From Deltaproteobacteria bacterium (GTDB lineage Bacteria; Desulfobacterota; Desulfobulbia; Desulfobulbales; Desulfobulbaceae): 33,003 nt of DNA. Below, piece by piece: positions 548-32,763 of this stretch. A program made the position numbers and the translations under genes. The notes below the pieces were generated by a model, which saw only the letters and a list, made by a program, of their open reading frames with translations, searched no databases and was not told where the DNA came from. Position 1 is the stretch's first letter; each line of letters starts with the position of its first letter. Location: assembly GCA_013151365.1 (NCBI GenBank), contig JAADIK010000065.1:1-33003 (forward strand), written 5' to 3'.

Positions 548-680
548 AACTCTGAAATCCGCCTCTCTCGTTACGCGCAAACTCTTTATTGCATTATTGC
601 TAAATAAACGTATTTGCCGGTCTTCACCGCGCCGCCCTGCGGTCCGCCCGATAACGGCACATCTGCTGCGTTGGCAACTC

Positions 681-754
681 TTTGATATCACACCGGGATA
701 ATCAACATCGTTGCCGCCTTGCATCTGCACCGTTCTCGAACGCTCACGGATTCA
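681..754. repeat. Dispersed hairpin repeat, copy 1 (full length)
   Basis: TTTGATATCACACCGGGATAATCAACATCGTTGCCGCCTTGCATCTGCACCGTTCTCGAACGCTCACGGATTC; near-identical to 9662-9734 and 20451-20523. Confidence 0.9.
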
Positions 755-758
755 GGTC

Positions 759-1754
759 TTACTGCATACTGTTCAGATGTTGCCTGGCCGTCGCGGCCTC
801 CGGGCTTTTCGGATATTCCGCCAGCAATTTCTTGTAGATGATTTTTGCCGTTTCACGGTCAGTGAGCTTTTCAAAGGAGATGCCCTGCTTCAACAGCGCT
901 GTCGGAGTCCGCCGGTTTTTGGCATGATTCGAAATAACCTTCTGATAGTCCAGGATCGCCAGGTCATACTCGCCCTGCGCGAAGAGACATTCACCCATGA
1001 AAAAAAGCGTTTCCGCCGCCTTGTCACCTTTGGGATGGCCGGCGAGCACCTGTTCAAAGGTCTTGTAGGCATCCGCATACTTCTTGGCCTGGTATTGCTT
1101 CATGGCCCGGCTGAACAGGTCGATTCCGCGCACCGGCGGCGAGGTCGCGGATGCTGCATTCTTGCGCGGCAAATTCTTTGCGGTTGACGAAACGGCGGCC
1201 GGCGCGGCCTTGCGCCGCCCCGTAACCTTGACTTTCCGCCCGGTCGGCATGATATTGACAACGCCGCTGGCCGCGGTCGCCGCCATAACCGTCCGCTGTC
1301 TTGCTTCTTCCGCCCGCCGGGCCGCCGCCTGCGCCCGTTTCTCGGCCTCTCGAATCCTGGCCTGGCTCAGTTTGCCGACCTTGAAGGCCAGGCGGTCAAG
1401 CCGGTCCTCGATGAGCTTGAAGCGCTGTTGGTTTGCCGCCTGGTATTTTTCAACCGTTGACTGCAGGGCGGCCAGGTTTTCCTTTGACTGTTCCCGGAAC
1501 AGAGTCTCCTGGTGAGCGTTTTCCTCCAGCGAGCCACGCAGTTGTAACACATCATTCTGCACCGCTTCGATCCGGCTGAGGGAACCGGCCTGCCGTTTCT
1601 GTATCTTACTCACGGTCGTACTCTTGATATCCTCTACCTTCTGGTTGACCGCCCGGAGCTGATAACTTAAATTTTGCACCGCATCCTGGGTCGCACACTG
1701 GCAGAGCAAAAAAACAGAACAACCCGCAACAACCAGATTCCTTATACGTTTCAT
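759..1754 (-). CDS. cpoB: Tol-Pal system TPR protein CpoB/YbgF, lipoprotein-like N-terminus
   Basis: Start at MKRIRNLVVAGCSVFLLCQC (lipobox-like) is more likely than the ORF start at 1868, which overlaps tolB; coiled-coil N-terminus then TPR repeats (AMKQYQAKKYADAYKTFEQVLAGHPKGDKAAETLFFMGECLFAQGEYDLAILDYQKVI). Adjacent to tolB. Confidence 0.85.
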   Translation of the reverse strand: MKRIRNLVVAGCSVFLLCQCATQDAVQNLSYQLRAVNQKVEDIKSTTVSKIQKRQAGSLSRIEAVQNDVLQLRGSLEENAHQETLFREQSKENLAALQSTVEKYQAANQQRFKLIEDRLDRLAFKVGKLSQARIREAEKRAQAAARRAEEARQRTVMAATAASGVVNIMPTGRKVKVTGRRKAAPAAVSSTAKNLPRKNAASATSPPVRGIDLFSRAMKQYQAKKYADAYKTFEQVLAGHPKGDKAAETLFFMGECLFAQGEYDLAILDYQKVISNHAKNRRTPTALLKQGISFEKLTDRETAKIIYKKLLAEYPKSPEAATARQHLNSMQ

Positions 1755-1846
1755 TGACGCCCCTTTTTTCAAGTCCTTGCTTATCATGTTTTGAATATCA
1801 AGAAAACAACCGTGTTTCTGTTTTTGCCTCACTCGCGCCGGCCGCT

Positions 1847-3190
1847 TCATTTCGGTCGGCAGGACCACTGCGGATACGACTGATTGCCCTTCAGGTGAAA
1901 CAAAACCCGCAGTCCCCGGCCGTCCGCAAAAATCGCATACAACTGCTGTTTATTACCCAGGCGCCGGGAAAGAGCTATCTGTTTGCCGTCCGGCGACCAG
2001 GTCGGTGATTCGAATTCGCCCGGGCCGGAAGTCACCTGCCGGGGCGGCGAGGTGCCGGCCGGATCGATGGTGAAAATCTGGTGATGACCATTTATGCGAC
2101 CGGTATAGGCTATCAGGTCCCCTTTCGGCGACCAGCAGGGTTCCGTGTTTTCATTGCCCTGAAAGGTGAGACGCCGCGTCCGGTGGTTTTTCATATCCAT
2201 GATATATATCTGCGGAGTACCGCTGCGGTCGGAGACAAAGGCGATGGATTTGCCGTCCGGCGCCCAGGTCGCGGACACATTGATTCCGGCCCGGGAGGTA
2301 AGACGTTTGAGAATCCGGCCCTGCCGATCGATAATATAGAGATCCGGGTTGCCGTCCTTGCTGAGCGTCACGATCATGGTCTTGCCGTCCGGCGCCCAGG
2401 CCGGTGCCAGGTTCATTCCCCGGCGGCGGGAGATGGCCCTGGTGATCTTGTTCTGTGACAGATCGGTAACATACAGGTTCTGGTTGCCCGTGTGGTAGGA
2501 GGAATAGGCCAGGTAGCGGCCGTCCGGAGAAAAACGCGGCGAAACGACAAGATGACGATTACGGGTCACCTGGCGCAGCTTCAGGCCGAGGACATCGCTG
2601 ATATACGCTTCCTTGTAGCCGGTCGCATCGGAGATAAAGGCTATCCTGGTTCGGCTGATCCCCGGCTCGCCGGTGAATTCCTTGATCAGGGAATCGCACA
2701 GCATGAGGACCATTTCGTCCTGTTGCTTGACCGAGCCCCGATAGCGGCGGCCGACAAGCATCTTGTTCTGGGTCACGTCGAGGAGCCGCCCCTCTATCAT
2801 CATGCCGGAGGCCGTGGTTTCATAGCGCCCCAGGATTACATAATCGACCCCGAGAGATTTCCAGTCGGCGTCCTGCCGGCCCCCGTAGCGCTCGGGGGCC
2901 AGGATCTTGATAAAACCATGAAATTGCAGAGCGCGGGCCAGGAGTTTGGCCATGGCCCGGCCCCTGGCCTGATCCTGGCCGGGCGCCGACGAATTGGCAA
3001 ACCAGGGTACCGCCACCATGACTTTACGCATGTTCGAGGCCGTAAGGTCAAGATACACCACCTCGGCCCGGGCAGAAAGGACGCTGCCGAAAATGAGCAG
3101 CAAAAGACAGAAAGCCGTGCCGATTTGAATCGTCAGCCGACGGTGCAGTTGCATGGACAGGCAATGTGCTGGTTTCATATCATGACTCAT
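1847..3190 (-). CDS. tolB: Tol-Pal system beta-propeller protein TolB
   Basis: Signal peptide, N-terminal TolB domain, repeated SPDG/APDG propeller motifs (SPDGRYLAYSS, APDGKSIAFVSDRSGTPQIYIMD, SPDGKQIALSR). Confidence 0.93.
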   Translation of the reverse strand: MSHDMKPAHCLSMQLHRRLTIQIGTAFCLLLLIFGSVLSARAEVVYLDLTASNMRKVMVAVPWFANSSAPGQDQARGRAMAKLLARALQFHGFIKILAPERYGGRQDADWKSLGVDYVILGRYETTASGMMIEGRLLDVTQNKMLVGRRYRGSVKQQDEMVLMLCDSLIKEFTGEPGISRTRIAFISDATGYKEAYISDVLGLKLRQVTRNRHLVVSPRFSPDGRYLAYSSYHTGNQNLYVTDLSQNKITRAISRRRGMNLAPAWAPDGKTMIVTLSKDGNPDLYIIDRQGRILKRLTSRAGINVSATWAPDGKSIAFVSDRSGTPQIYIMDMKNHRTRRLTFQGNENTEPCWSPKGDLIAYTGRINGHHQIFTIDPAGTSPPRQVTSGPGEFESPTWSPDGKQIALSRRLGNKQQLYAIFADGRGLRVLFHLKGNQSYPQWSCRPK

Positions 3191-3208
3191 ATATCAAAGA
3201 GAGATCAA

Positions 3209-4111
3209 CTAATTGGCGGTAACAAGTTCTCCCGGCCTGAAACGGAGACCGACCTCAATGGATTTCTGCTGCATGAGGGGGGGGAAGCGCGGCATGGGGA
3301 CAACGCTCTGGATCGTTTTCATAACAAATTGATCAAAAAAAGGATCATTGGATTTTTTTTCAATATACGTATTGGTGACCGTCCCGTCCCTGCGGATGGT
3401 CAGGATAACAACCATCTCGAGTCCATGCCGCCATTGGCGCATATCGGGCAGAACCCATAATTGCCGGATTTTATTATCGAGAGAGGCCAGGTACTGCTGA
3501 AAGACGATTGATTGAATCTGTTTGCTCCCGGCAGACGCTTGGCGGGGCTGATTGTTCTCCAGTGCTCCCTGGTCGCGGATCATGTCGGCCAGGGCCTTCC
3601 GGGCATTGATCGCATCCCGCTCCGCCAGTTTTTCGTCGCGCCGGGCGGCGGCCAGGGCCTTTTCCCGCGCCCTTTTTTCCTGTTGCCGCCGGTGTTCTTC
3701 GAGCCGCCTGTTATCCACGGCTACCTTGATTTTTCTGCTTCGAGGACGCAGGGAGATCGGCTTCGCCGGCAGGGCGTTGATCGATACCTTCTTTGCCGGC
3801 TGCCGCCTGGCCACCTGGATTTTCGCCTTGACCTTTTTTGCCCTGGCAACAGGTTTCGCTCGTTTTTCCGGGACCGGCCGCGGGGGCGGCGGCTGGGCCT
3901 TCGCCGGCCGGTTCGCGGCAAGCCTGGGCAGGGAAACGAGATTGACCGTGATCACCTCGTTGAGCAGGGGGCGCCGGTGGATCAATGACGGCAAGGTGGC
4001 GGACAGGGCAAAAACGACAATATGAAAGATTACGGCCAGGCCGACGGGCCAGAGCCATCTTCGATCAGCGTCCTTTTGCCGCAGGAAAAATGCCGTATCG
4101 CTGAGAGTCAC
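3209..4111 (-). CDS. tolA: TolA/TonB C-terminal domain cell-envelope protein
   Basis: Single N-terminal TM, Pro/Lys/Arg-rich linker, TonB-like C-terminus (VVILTIRRDGTVTNTYIEKKSNDPFFDQFVMKTIQ); between tolR and tolB. Confidence 0.85.
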   Translation of the reverse strand: MTLSDTAFFLRQKDADRRWLWPVGLAVIFHIVVFALSATLPSLIHRRPLLNEVITVNLVSLPRLAANRPAKAQPPPPRPVPEKRAKPVARAKKVKAKIQVARRQPAKKVSINALPAKPISLRPRSRKIKVAVDNRRLEEHRRQQEKRAREKALAAARRDEKLAERDAINARKALADMIRDQGALENNQPRQASAGSKQIQSIVFQQYLASLDNKIRQLWVLPDMRQWRHGLEMVVILTIRRDGTVTNTYIEKKSNDPFFDQFVMKTIQSVVPMPRFPPLMQQKSIEVGLRFRPGELVTAN

Positions 4112-4132
4112 CGCTTCCAGTGCCGGATCCCC

Positions 4133-4552
4133 CTATCGCTCTTTATCGAACGGTTGCGTAATCATGCCCAGTTTTGCAAATCCCGCCTGCTTGATATCGG
4201 TCATAATGGCGACAACCAGGCCGTAGGGCACAGCTTTATCGGCACGCAGGTAGACCGGGCGCTTCTTTTCTCCGGCAGCCATGGCGCCGAGCTGCTGCCT
4301 GAGAAGCGCCGAACTGACTCTGACCTTGCCGAGATAGATGACCCCGTCCTTATCCAGCGTAACAATAAGCGGTTCAGTCTGTTGGCGTAAGGTCTTGGCC
4401 GTTGTCTCGGGCAGGGCGACCTCCAGGCCGTGGGTCATCATCGGTGCGGTTACCATGAAAATAATCAGCAGGACCAGCATGACATCAACCAGCGGTGTCA
4501 CGTTGATCTCGGCCATCAGAGTTTTCCGGCATTTACCTCCCATCGGCCCCAT
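4133..4552 (-). CDS. tolR: Biopolymer transport protein ExbD/TolR
   Basis: EINVTPLVDVMLVLLIIFMVTAPMM, hallmark of ExbD/TolR. Confidence 0.93.
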   Translation of the reverse strand: MGPMGGKCRKTLMAEINVTPLVDVMLVLLIIFMVTAPMMTHGLEVALPETTAKTLRQQTEPLIVTLDKDGVIYLGKVRVSSALLRQQLGAMAAGEKKRPVYLRADKAVPYGLVVAIMTDIKQAGFAKLGMITQPFDKER

Positions 4553-4600
4553 TTCGCTAACCTTTTCGCCTCTTGTTGAATTTTTTTGTTTTTACCTTGT

Positions 4601-4633
4601 ATCCGTGAGCGTTCGAGAACGGTGCGGATGCAG
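4601..4633. repeat. Dispersed hairpin repeat, copy 2 (core only, opposite orientation), in the tolQ-tolR gap
   Basis: ATCCGTGAGCGTTCGAGAACGGTGCGGATGCAG is the reverse complement of the 3' core of the copies at 681, 9662 and 20451. Confidence 0.85.
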
Positions 4634-4647
4634 ATTTTTGTAACTGT

Positions 4648-5346
4648 TCACTGCGCCCGGGTCAGGATATCGCGTTCAATAAGATTGAGAAAATCCGTTG
4701 AAAAGTGCTCGATATCCGAGTCGAATTCGGACAGTTTATTGGCAAAAAAATTATAAGAGATAACCGCGGGAATGGCAACCGCCAAACCGGCGGCAGTGGC
4801 GACAAGGGCCTCCGAAATGCCCGGCGCCACAACGGCAAGTGACGCCGAGCCCCGCATGCCGATGTCCTGAAATGATGACATGATGCCCCAGACGGTGCCG
4901 AACAGGCCGATAAAGGGAGCGGCGCTGCCGGTGGTGGCCAGGAAAGGCAGCGAGCGGCCCAGCCGGTCGATCTCGAAAATATGGGCCTTGCGCAGGGACC
5001 GCTTCAGGTTGTCAAGCGTGGCCAGCTGCATATCCAGGGTCTCCCGCTCGGGTTCCTGATGTTCCCGGGCGGTGCTGAGTTTTTTCAACTCGTGAAAACC
5101 GGAGACAAAAACCGCGGCCTCGGGGCTGAGAGTATATTCCTTGGCCGAATCGTACGCCTCGTTGAGAGTCTTGCTGGCCCAGAATCGATCGAGGAACTCC
5201 TCCGAATTCTGCCGCACCCGCCTGAACATCAGCTGCTTCATGATAATGATACTCCAGGAAACAACGGAAAAGAACAGCAGGATCAGCATGACGGTCTTGA
5301 CCATAAGACCGGTATGGATCATCATCGCAACAAGAGAGACATTCAC
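4648..5346 (-). CDS. tolQ: Tol-Pal/ExbB proton channel protein TolQ
   Basis: MotA/TolQ/ExbB motifs (LATTGSAAPFIGLFGTVWGIMSSFQDIG, ATAAGLAVAIPAVISYNFF). Confidence 0.93.
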   Translation of the reverse strand: MNVSLVAMMIHTGLMVKTVMLILLFFSVVSWSIIIMKQLMFRRVRQNSEEFLDRFWASKTLNEAYDSAKEYTLSPEAAVFVSGFHELKKLSTAREHQEPERETLDMQLATLDNLKRSLRKAHIFEIDRLGRSLPFLATTGSAAPFIGLFGTVWGIMSSFQDIGMRGSASLAVVAPGISEALVATAAGLAVAIPAVISYNFFANKLSEFDSDIEHFSTDFLNLIERDILTRAQ

Positions 5347-6893: not shown

Positions 6894-9629
6894 ATGAATA
6901 CGTTAATCGGCAAACTTTGGCACCATCTGCCGGCAAAAGAAGTCGTCGAGCTCCTGGAAGGCGATGCGGCAAAAGGACTTGATCTGTTCCAGGTCAAGCA
7001 TCTCCAGGAGACTTTCGGCCCCAATACCATTACTGCCAAAAGGGGAAAAAGGCCCTGGCAACGTTTTCTGCTCCAGTTTCACCAGCCGCTTATATATATC
7101 CTGATCGCCGCGGGCATAATTACCGCCTTTCTTCATGAATGGGTGGACTCCGGAGTTATTTTCGGGGTGGTGATGGTCAACGCAATTATCGGTTATATCC
7201 AGGAAGCCAAGGCCGTCAACGCCCTGGCTTCCCTGGCCCGGACCATGACCAGCGAGGCCACGGTTCTGCGCCAGGGTGAAAAAAAACGTATCTCAGCGAC
7301 GGAACTGGTGCCGGGCGACATCGTGCTGCTGTCCAGCGGCGACAAGGTGCCGGCGGACATGCGGCTGCTGGCGGTCAGGAACCTGCGGGTCGATGAATCC
7401 GCCCTGACCGGCGAGTCCCTGCCGGTGGAGAAAAGAGAGGGCGATCTCGGTCGTGACACGCTGCTGGCGGACCGGCTGAATATGGTCTACGCGTCAACCC
7501 TGGTGACCTACGGCCAGGGGAAAGGTATTGTCACGGCAATCGGCAATCATACCGAGGTGGGCCGTATCTCGGAGATGATCGCTGCCGTCGATGAACTGGC
7601 GACGCCGCTTACCCGCAAGATTGCCCGCTTCAGTCACATTCTGCTTTACGCCATCCTGGCCATGGCCGCGTTGACCATTGTCATCGGAGTACTGAGAGGG
7701 CAACCCCTGTTCGACATGTTCCTGGCGGCGGTGGCCCTGGCCGTCGGGGCCATTCCGGAAGGTCTGCCCGCCGCCGTCACCATAACGCTCGCTATCGGGG
7801 TCTCACGGATGGCAAAACGGCGGGCCCTTATCCGTAAACTGCCGGCCGTGGAGACCCTGGGCTCGACCACGGTGATCTGTTCGGACAAGACCGGCACGCT
7901 TACGGAAAACCAGATGACGGTCCAGGAAATCATGGCGGGAGGAGTCGTGTACGAGGTGACCGGCGCCGGCTATGATCCGTCTGCCGGAAAAATTCTGCCG
8001 GCGGACGGCAGTCCTGACCCCGGCGCCTCGCCGGTCCTGGCCGAATGCCTCCGGGCCGGAGTTCTCTGTAATGACAGTATGTTGTCAAACAAAGACGGTG
8101 AATGGCAGGTGCAGGGCGATCCCACTGAAGGAGCGCTGCTGGTCGCCGCCATCAAGGGCGGGGGTAACCTCACCGCATATAAAAACCGTTTTCCCCGGCT
8201 CGATACCTTGCCCTTTGAGTCGGAATATCAGTACATGGCCACCCTGCATGCAGGTGAAGACGGCGCGGAACGGCTCGTTTATGTCAAGGGGTCGACAGAG
8301 GCCGTTCTGGCCCGCTGCGGCTCCCGGCTGGACACGGCCGGCGCCCTCTCCGGCCTGGATGCGGCGGAGATCCATCACCAGGTTGAACGTCTGGCCGGAA
8401 AAGGCCTCCGGGTGCTGGCGTTTGCCGGTAAGAAACTACCTGCTGCCGTTGATCGTCTTACCCATGATGATGTGCGGTCGGACCTGGTCTTTATCGGCTT
8501 CATGGCCATGATCGATCCGCCGCGGGACTCGGCGGTGCAGGCGGTACGGGTCTGCCGGGCGGCCGGCATCCAGGTCAAGATGATCACCGGAGATCACGCG
8601 GTCACCGCCGCCGCCATCGCCGACCAGATCGGCTTGCATGGAATGACTACGGAGAACGGCGGCAGACCGCGGGTCCTCACCGGCAGTGACCTTGTTGCTC
8701 TTGCGGACCGGGAATTGATCGAGCAGGTCGAAGAAACAACGGTGTTCGCCCGGGTGGCGCCGGACCAGAAACTGCGCCTGGTGGAGGCCCTGCAGTCCCG
8801 TGGTCACGTGGTGGCCATGACCGGCGACGGCGTCAATGACGCCCCGGCCCTGAAACAGGCGAACATCGGCGTGGCCATGGGGATAACCGGCACCGAGGTG
8901 GCCAAGGAGGCCGCCGACATGGTGCTTATCGACGACAATTTCAGCTCCATCGAGGCCGCGGTTGAAGAGGGCCGCGGCGTCTTCGACAACCTGACAAAGT
9001 TCATTGTCTGGACCCTGCCCACCAACCTGGGTGAGGGGCTGGTCATCATTGCCGCCATTTTATTCGGCGTGACCCTGCCCATTATGCCCCTGCAGATCCT
9101 CTGGATCAATATGACTACCGCCGGTTTCCTGGGCCTGATGCTGGCCTTTGAGCCCAAGGAGCCGGGGATCATGACCCGGGCGCCCCGGGACCCGCAGACC
9201 CCGATTCTCACGCGAACCCTCATCGACCGCATTCTGCTGGTGGGCGGCTTGCTGCTGATCGGGGCGTTCGCCCTTTTTCAGTGGGAGCTGGCAAAGGGGG
9301 CCGATCTCGCCGAGGCGCGCACCGTGGCGGTTAATGCCTTTGTGGTCATGGAACTGTTTTACCTGTTCAACTGCCGTTCCCTGACAAAATCGGTTTTCAA
9401 GCTGGGCTTTTTTTCAAATGCGTGGCTGTTCGGCGGGGTGGCGGTCATGCTGCTTATCCAGATCGTTTACACGTATCTGCCGGTGATGAACACCCTGTTT
9501 CAGAGTGCGCCCATCGACCTCGAGGCCTGGCTCCGGATCGCGGCCGCCGGTATCATCACCTTCGCGATTGTCGAGTTTGAAAAATGGCTGCGGCTGGCAG
9601 CCCTCCGGAGACGCGCGGCAGCAAGTTAG
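6894..9629 (+). CDS. Cation-translocating P-type ATPase (P2A/PacL-like)
   Basis: TGES ([13 protein letters not shown]), PEGLPA in M4, DKTGTLT phosphorylation motif, [23 protein letters not shown]. Start at [13 protein letters not shown] rather than the upstream in-frame codon at 6837. Confidence 0.92.
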
Positions 9630-9661
9630 TACCCGTCCCGAAACGGTCCTGAATGCAATTC

Positions 9662-9734
9662 CTTGATATCACACCAGGATAATCGATATCGTTGCCGCCT
9701 TGCACCTGCACCGTTCTCGCATGCGCACGGATTC
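9662..9734. repeat. Dispersed hairpin repeat, copy 3 (full length, diverged hairpin arm)
   Basis: TTGATATCACACCAGGATAATCGATATCGTTGCCGCCTTGCACCTGCACCGTTCTCGCATGCGCACGGATTC; matches copies 1 and 4 with changes in the 3' arm. Confidence 0.88.
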
Positions 9735-9807
9735 GGGTAATTGTGCTATTTTGGTTGAATTTGTGCGGATGATTTTGTAGTTATATAAACTTACCTTTTT
9801 TTTATGA

Positions 9808-20346: not shown

Positions 20347-20450
20347 TTATGTAACTCCTTTTTCAAAGGCGCCCAGGCGCATAGTAACGCTATAACTGAA
20401 GCCGTAACACCGCCGGAACGCCAAAAGACGAGCAAGGTGCGTCAGTTGGT

Positions 20451-20523
20451 GCTTGACATGACACAAGATAATCAACCTCGTTGCCGCCTTGCATCCGCAC
20501 CGTTCTCGAACGCTCACGGATTC
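20451..20523. repeat. Dispersed hairpin repeat, copy 4 (full length, overlaps the response-regulator stop codon)
   Basis: GCTTGACATGACACAAGATAATCAACCTCGTTGCCGCCTTGCATCCGCACCGTTCTCGAACGCTCACGGATTC; matches copies 1 and 3. Confidence 0.9.
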
Positions 20524-20882
20524 ATGAGTATTTCCCGGATCTGCTCCATGACCATCACCGGGTCGATGGGTTTTTCAATATAACCGTTGCAGCCGGCGGC
20601 AAGCAGCTTCTCCCGGTCGCCGCTCATGGCGTATGAGGTCATGGCGATGATCGGTACCTTGCCGTCGGCCTTTGAACGGCGAATGGCTTGCAGCACCTCG
20701 GTGCCGTTGATATCCGGCAGCTGGATGTCAAGGATTATGAAATCAGGCAGTTCGCTTTCCGCAAGCGCGATGCCCTTGCGGCCATTTTCGGCGCCAATGG
20801 TTTCTACGCCATTCTTGTTCAGGATGAAGCGGATCAACTCCATGTTGTCCGGCGTATCCTCGATAATCAGTGCTTTTGGCAT
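20514..20882 (-). CDS. Single-domain response regulator (CheY-like)
   Basis: KALIIEDTPDNMELIRFIL, PDFIILDIQLPDINGTEVLQAIR, PIIAMTSYAMSGDREKLLAAGCNGYIEKPID. Confidence 0.93.
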   Translation of the reverse strand: MPKALIIEDTPDNMELIRFILNKNGVETIGAENGRKGIALAESELPDFIILDIQLPDINGTEVLQAIRRSKADGKVPIIAMTSYAMSGDREKLLAAGCNGYIEKPIDPVMVMEQIREILMNP

Positions 20883-25011: not shown

Positions 25012-25196
25012 AGTGCCTTGCTCCTGAATTCCTGTCATAAAAAAACAAGAAAATTGATCATGTTTTATAAGCCAGTAGGTTATTTAGGCTGAAGGCTATT
25101 AGCGCTACCCCCTAACAGCCTAACAGCCTAACAGCCTACAGCCTGTAAACAGATACGCTGGAAGTTGATTTGGGGTGTGGGTATCGCCCGCCTTGG
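25012..25196 (+). repeat. Long dispersed repeat, copy A (inverted relative to copy B)
   Basis: Contains AGTGCCTT..TCCTGAATTCCTGTCATAAAAAAACAAGAAAATTGATCATGTTTTAT ... AACAGCCTACAGCCT ... AGATACGCTGGAAGTTGATTTGGG.TGTGGG.ATCGCCCGCC; reverse complement of 32583-32763. Confidence 0.9.
25112..25135. repeat. Short tandem repeat (8-mer CTAACAGC x3) within copy A
   Basis: CTAACAGCCTAACAGCCTAACAGC followed by the degenerate unit CTACAGCC. Confidence 0.8.
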
Positions 25197-32582: not shown

Positions 32583-32763
32583 CCAGGGCGGGCGATGCCC
32601 ACAACCCAAATCAACTTCCAGCGTATCTATTTCCAGACTGCTAGGCTGTAGGCTGTTAGGGTAGGGCTAATAGCCTACAGCCTAAGCAACCTGCTGATTT
32701 GCATAAATAAAACATGATCAATTTTCTTGTTTTTTTATGACAGGAATTCAGGATTAAGGCACT
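32583..32763 (-). repeat. Long dispersed repeat, copy B (inverted relative to copy A)
   Basis: Reverse complement matches 25012-25196, including TCCTGAATTCCTGTCATAAAAAAACAAGAAAATTGATCATGTTTTAT and GATACGCTGGAAGTTGATTTGGG. Confidence 0.9.

Follow-up and report, generated by a model that had tools for sequence, protein, structure and literature searches.

A structured repeat of Desulfobulbales as one end of a high-copy MITE, probably mobilised by IS1380-family transposases

The window, that is, the whole stretch of 33,003 nucleotides of Desulfobulbales DNA that was analysed, contains dispersed copies of a hairpin repeat that are best explained as parts of an IS1380-mobilised MITE with a conserved single-strand fold serving the element, a joint reading to which we give a probability of about 0.72. 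The repeat would be the structured right end of this high-copy non-autonomous transposon of about 218 bp. In the mechanism that we propose, (i) DDE transposases of the IS1380 family would recognise the 13-bp ends, move the MITE in trans and leave a 5-bp target duplication, as the identical ends and the duplication length suggest; (ii) the fold between the ends, as covariation shows, is maintained by compensatory change throughout Desulfobacterota, which we take to be the phylum of the order Desulfobulbales, whereas the spacer is free to drift and the ends would differ according to IS1380 sub-type; and (iii) the fold would most likely act in a read-through RNA, binding a factor that aids persistence or movement of the element, with folded single-stranded DNA as the main alternative.

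A 27-nt core was matched in the window at 727-753 (+, 0 mismatches), 9708-9734 (+, 3 mismatches), 20497-20523 (+, 0 mismatches) and 4599-4625 (-, 1 mismatch) and not once in 100 shuffles, which agrees with the four positions given by the sequence-only reading. The length of about 75 bp that it assigned to the repeat covers just the best-kept portion of an element that measures about 218 bp and has inverted ends of 13 bp, and the copies that it described as full-length are, like the fourth, truncated or decayed. The features are as follows; for copy 1, the strand given is the one favouring the fold.

584..756, - strand: copy 1, truncated on the left so that about 173 of the 218 bp remain, with homology to the family consensus starting TTTATTGCATTATTGC at about 584
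622..756, - strand: copy 1, structured half, small hairpin plus long imperfect hairpin (model R1 match, 145 bits, E 7e-34; covariation)
744..756, - strand: copy 1, terminal inverted repeat CCTGAATCCGTGA, all 13 bp intact with 0 mismatches, equal to IS1380 element ends
4596..4633, + strand: copy 4, terminal fragment of 38 bp, flanked by a tolR-like and a tolQ-like gene
9655..9737 (R1: 9609-9737), - strand: copy 2, decayed and truncated (R1 31.9 bits)
20400..20526, - strand: copy 3, decayed (R1 42 bits), terminal repeat at 20514-20526 with 1 mismatch

Copy 1 has lost its left end. All four copies lie in gene gaps or at gene ends, as had been stated from the sequence: copy 2 is flanked by genes for a P-type ATPase and for a ketol-acid reductoisomerase, and copy 3 ends a response-regulator gene that takes its stop codon from the terminal repeat at 20514-20526, so that the insertion may have altered the final residues of the regulator. 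A tol-pal-type operon at 759-5346 (TPR protein, TolB, ExbD/TolR and TolQ) contains copies 1 and 4 in its intergenic gaps. Another dispersed repeat of the window, about 180 bp long and unrelated to the first, is present in two copies of inverted orientation (25012-25196 and 32583-32763) that are 83-96% alike in pieces; within it, CCTGAATTCCTGTCA is a distant echo of an IS1380-type end.

In an alignment of about 50 copies, the element stops sharply on the right, at ...CTCACGGATTCAGG, and has its matching left end, CCTGAATCCGTGACGGCTTGAGG, about 218 bp away. Each end of the full element is a 13-bp inverted repeat (CCTGAATCCGTGA); between them lie a spacer rich in A/T and, on the right, the structured half. 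Four loci had been listed, and a genome holding only these had been named as what would refute the reading; this refutation failed, as the host assembly (2.18 Mb in 200 contigs, 82% complete) contains 113 right-core sites (32-nt core, up to 3 mismatches) and 225 left-end sites, while the backwards control for the core and left-end search of the same assembly gave 0 sites. Contig ends coincide with many of the copies, which is to be expected of a repeat that breaks assemblies. Both ends are present in 61 of the 103 copies examined. The proposed search for target duplications and empty sites was run, and 26 of the 61 complete copies carry 5-bp target duplications, against 0.6 expected from shuffled flanks, with 78% A/T in the duplicated 5-mers. 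An empty site was found in a genus-mate (G001) for one short-form copy (L116 vs L236): the allele of the host, G000, reads TAGAG-element-TAGAGGACGACGAG, and that of the genus-mate, with a single TAGAG, reads ...CATAGAGGACGACGAG. Elsewhere in the host (L131, about 1534-1556; G000:C171) lies a 23-bp palindrome, CCTGAATCCGTGACGGATTCAGG, that is little beyond two fused ends, an extreme internal deletion.

The candidate partner was recognised in relatives of the same order, where PF13701 genes score above the cut-off in 31 of 146 genomes and several complete IS1380 copies of about 1.65 kb end exactly in CCTGAATCCGTGA and are bordered by 5-6 bp duplications; three proteins of these insertion sequences are IS1380-family transposases by NCBIfam (1e-102 to 1e-105). 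The likeness of the MITE to these insertion sequences (NF033539 / PF13701) consists of identical 13-bp ends and 5-6 bp target duplications in the same order, which identifies the element as an IS1380-type MITE and not as a REP spread by a RAYT. Unlike the MITE, they encode a transposase, and the shared sequence is limited to the 13-15 bp ends, with nothing shared inside. Mobilisation of the MITE in trans by IS1380 is thus something that we infer, strongly, from these matches. No match to the PF13701 (IS1380) transposase was found in the 82%-complete host assembly, and the genus-mate has a weak PF13701 remnant at most, which speaks against the link; a resident enzyme is not needed, though, if the element moved in the past. 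An IS4/IS5-type (PF01609) partner was rejected, as none occurs in the host's own genome and the loci found in relatives did not show matching ends. A supposed 1.28-kb autonomous copy (L195) turned out to be two MITE copies flanking a host gene.

The structured half is predicted to fold, inside the paired end repeats, into a small hairpin followed by a long imperfect hairpin. Support for this fold is strong. In a MAFFT alignment made without the use of structure from 27 elements, chosen to be below 88% similarity, 96% of cells are paired, vs 27-40% when slid, and compensatory double changes occur in 14 of 46 pairs, a level reached by 0 of 500 shuffles; folding of single sequences gave z-scores of -4.4 to -9.8. 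The long hairpin contains a conserved CAGATGC/GCAGATG internal loop with tandem G.A on one strand, and the small hairpin has the form CCC-NNN-GGG. The hairpin that had been proposed initially (ATCCG/CGGAT plus CGTTC/GAACG) can be drawn, yet it has 0 covarying pairs and is no better than shuffles. Extra hairpin-like inserts of 25-55 bp (e.g., ...CTCGCAGGCTCGC... and ...GCCCCGCAGGAAGTGCCCTTGGGGTGC...) lie within the long hairpin at six loci (L173, L191, L253, L175, L216 and L209) and recur across genomes.

Among the matches listed, the element is present in Desulfobulbus alkaliphilus DSM 24258 and in several metagenome-derived Desulfobulbales genomes, and comparison across the families of this order shows conservation of both ends and of the right half, but not of the A/T-rich spacer on the left. 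Beyond this order, a covariance model built on the structured half detected the core in further orders of the phylum, and a second model, at E<=1e-4, matched at least 103 of 395 genomes and at least 76 of 246 genera (8 candidates per genome scored; E-values rough). Phylum-wide, double changes affect 37 of 41 pairs in alignments that were fitted to the model and so lean towards the structure they were fitted to (slid controls, 30-48% paired). Throughout the phylum, conservation extends to two unpaired motifs, CAGATGCAAGGCG and AACGCAGCAGATG, which form the tandem G.A loop on the favoured strand only. Many of the elements read outside the order are MITEs of about 255-260 bp in which the core adjoins one end, with 4-5 bp duplications and ends different from CCTGAATCCGTGA:

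CCTAAATCCTGCA: ends of MITEs with the same core at L336 and L343
CCCAAATTATGCA: ends of a MITE with the same core at L353
CCTAAACGTTGCA: ends of a MITE with the same core at L334
CCTAAATTGAGCG: ends of a MITE with the same core at L344

One IS1380 element (L287) ends in CCTAAATCCTGCA and another (L271) in CCTAAATTTTGCA, so that the ends appear to track IS1380 sub-types while the core stays; for ends other than CCTGAATCCGTGA, this link rests on these two insertion sequences. Six matches (L326-L329, L331 and L335) are bare hairpins that showed no such ends, which counts against the reading, and viral contigs gave 0 matches to one exact form of the core.

Mismatches within the long hairpin point to the strand on which the fold acts. 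In the unfitted alignment, A.C outnumbers G.U by 27 to 10 on the strand read first, which equals G.U 27 : A.C 10 on the other; over 116 elements the wobble ratio is 103:35 in the hairpin vs 24:17 in the end repeats, which served as control. These raw counts are not independent, and with each distinct column state counted once the ratio is 16:9. The complementary strand also folds better in 130 of 136 elements. Such an asymmetry between G.U and A.C, which a two-strand cruciform would not give and RNA or single-stranded DNA would, supports selection on a single strand, with the hairpin-side end 5', within the limits of counts that are not independent. Between the two forms, we lean moderately towards RNA. 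That the element is an IS1380-type MITE whose fold acts instead as folded single-stranded DNA, exposed, for example, in replication or transposition, is a serious possibility to which we give rather less than an even chance. In DNA, too, G.T pairs are tolerated better than A.C pairs; GNA triloops, which form very stable DNA minihairpins, are common in the small hairpin (GCA in 35 and GAA in 21 of 95 elements); and deletion of the hairpin between short ACGG repeats fits a hairpin on the replicating strand. Against this, IS1380 (DDE) type transposases act on double-stranded ends.

The deleted forms also bear on what the fold is for. Hairpin-less elements of 118-130 bp retain intact ends, nearly all share the same junction, and 5 of 8 have a target duplication, so the hairpin might be dispensable. 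For 7 of the 8, however, the closest relative is a full copy, which rules out the short forms as a separate mobile lineage; hairpin deletions therefore recur but do not spread, despite intact ends, and this fits selection for the fold in propagation, eight forms being a small number. As to the host, tandem, convergent and divergent gene contexts and both orientations occur at about chance frequency, and no host copy lies inside a gene by simple ORF calls, which speaks against the regulation of particular host genes and suggests that the fold serves the element. A host regulatory RNA or terminator multiplied by selection beside genes could account for the strong covariation on one strand and for the intergenic position of all copies; we consider it unlikely, given the chance-like contexts, the inverted ends with target duplications and the lack of any match to the element among the Rfam 15 curated covariance models, and the lack of orientation bias among copies led us to reject a terminator or regulatory role.

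Somewhat less probable still is that the paired changes are a mutational by-product, with template switching correcting imperfect palindromes and no selection on the fold. Paired changes can indeed arise in the absence of selection when quasi-palindromes are corrected; but mismatches inside the fold, among them GA/GA and AAG/AAC, have been kept across the phylum rather than corrected, the adjacent spacer drifts freely, and the strand asymmetry would be left unexplained.

That the repeat is a REP-type palindrome which a RAYT (Y1) transposase has spread is highly improbable: it is, like REPs, palindromic, intergenic and of high copy number, and the genome contains one Y1_Tnp gene, but this sole Y1 transposase gene, located by the RAYT check, is not flanked by the repeat, and inverted ends with 5-bp target duplications are no REP traits and are common to IS1380 elements. 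Of the initial description as a "REP/MITE-like or non-autonomous element", the MITE part stands, given the inverted ends and target duplications, the many copies, the empty site in the genus-mate and the autonomous IS1380 elements that share these ends, and the REP part is not supported. The host gene for the Y1-type (REP-associated-like) transposase (L112, about 407-1387; G000:C66) is a 371-aa open frame that has sequences resembling GGGGTCAAGTCT / AGACTTGACCCC on both sides.

No named family had been recognised at the outset, and none was matched in Rfam or in the open literature, where a limited search did not find the element sequence. ERIC and Correia elements are likewise small extragenic MITEs with foldable transcripts; they differ in having a TA duplication, as opposed to the 5-bp duplication here, and are not known to have IS1380 ends. 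Chunjie, a 235-bp MITE of Geobacter uraniireducens (PMC10969869), is also short and non-coding, with inverted ends, target duplications and many partial copies; the review reports no phylum-wide core supported by covariation. The mobile/repeat candidate motif MRSC-65-2 (PMC11109978) resembles our element in that it forms one long stem with covariation, occurs dozens of times in a genome and has no consistent orientation, whereas it has a conserved UYCCGG repeat in place of the CAGATGCAAGGCG and AACGCAGCAGATG loops and IS1380-type ends, and one of the 250 unnamed motifs in that study could equal the present element. The Desulfotalea-1 motif (PMC2864571) is a related published idea. As MRSC, Desulfotalea-1 and Chunjie are distinguished by description and not by alignment, earlier detection of the element is possible.

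To conclude, the element is known in kind, as a MITE, and what would make it a novel form is a single-strand core that is conserved phylum-wide while its ends change. The usual view is that a passenger transposon requires its ends alone, and a conserved internal fold is unexpected. We tentatively propose, at a little under even odds, that the core represents an unnamed class of structured nucleic acid, most likely RNA, whose long hairpin with CAGATGCAAGGCG ... AACGCAGCAGATG loops is conserved through Desulfobacterota as a passenger that would exchange its ends to follow IS1380 transposases and would need its fold to spread. Evolution keeps the interior of the element across the phylum, and the ends change to suit different transposases, so that a role of structured RNA or of a folded DNA strand in the spread of a non-autonomous element can be put to the test. 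The element also serves to trace past insertions in many uncultured Desulfobacterota and accounts for some of the assembly breaks there.
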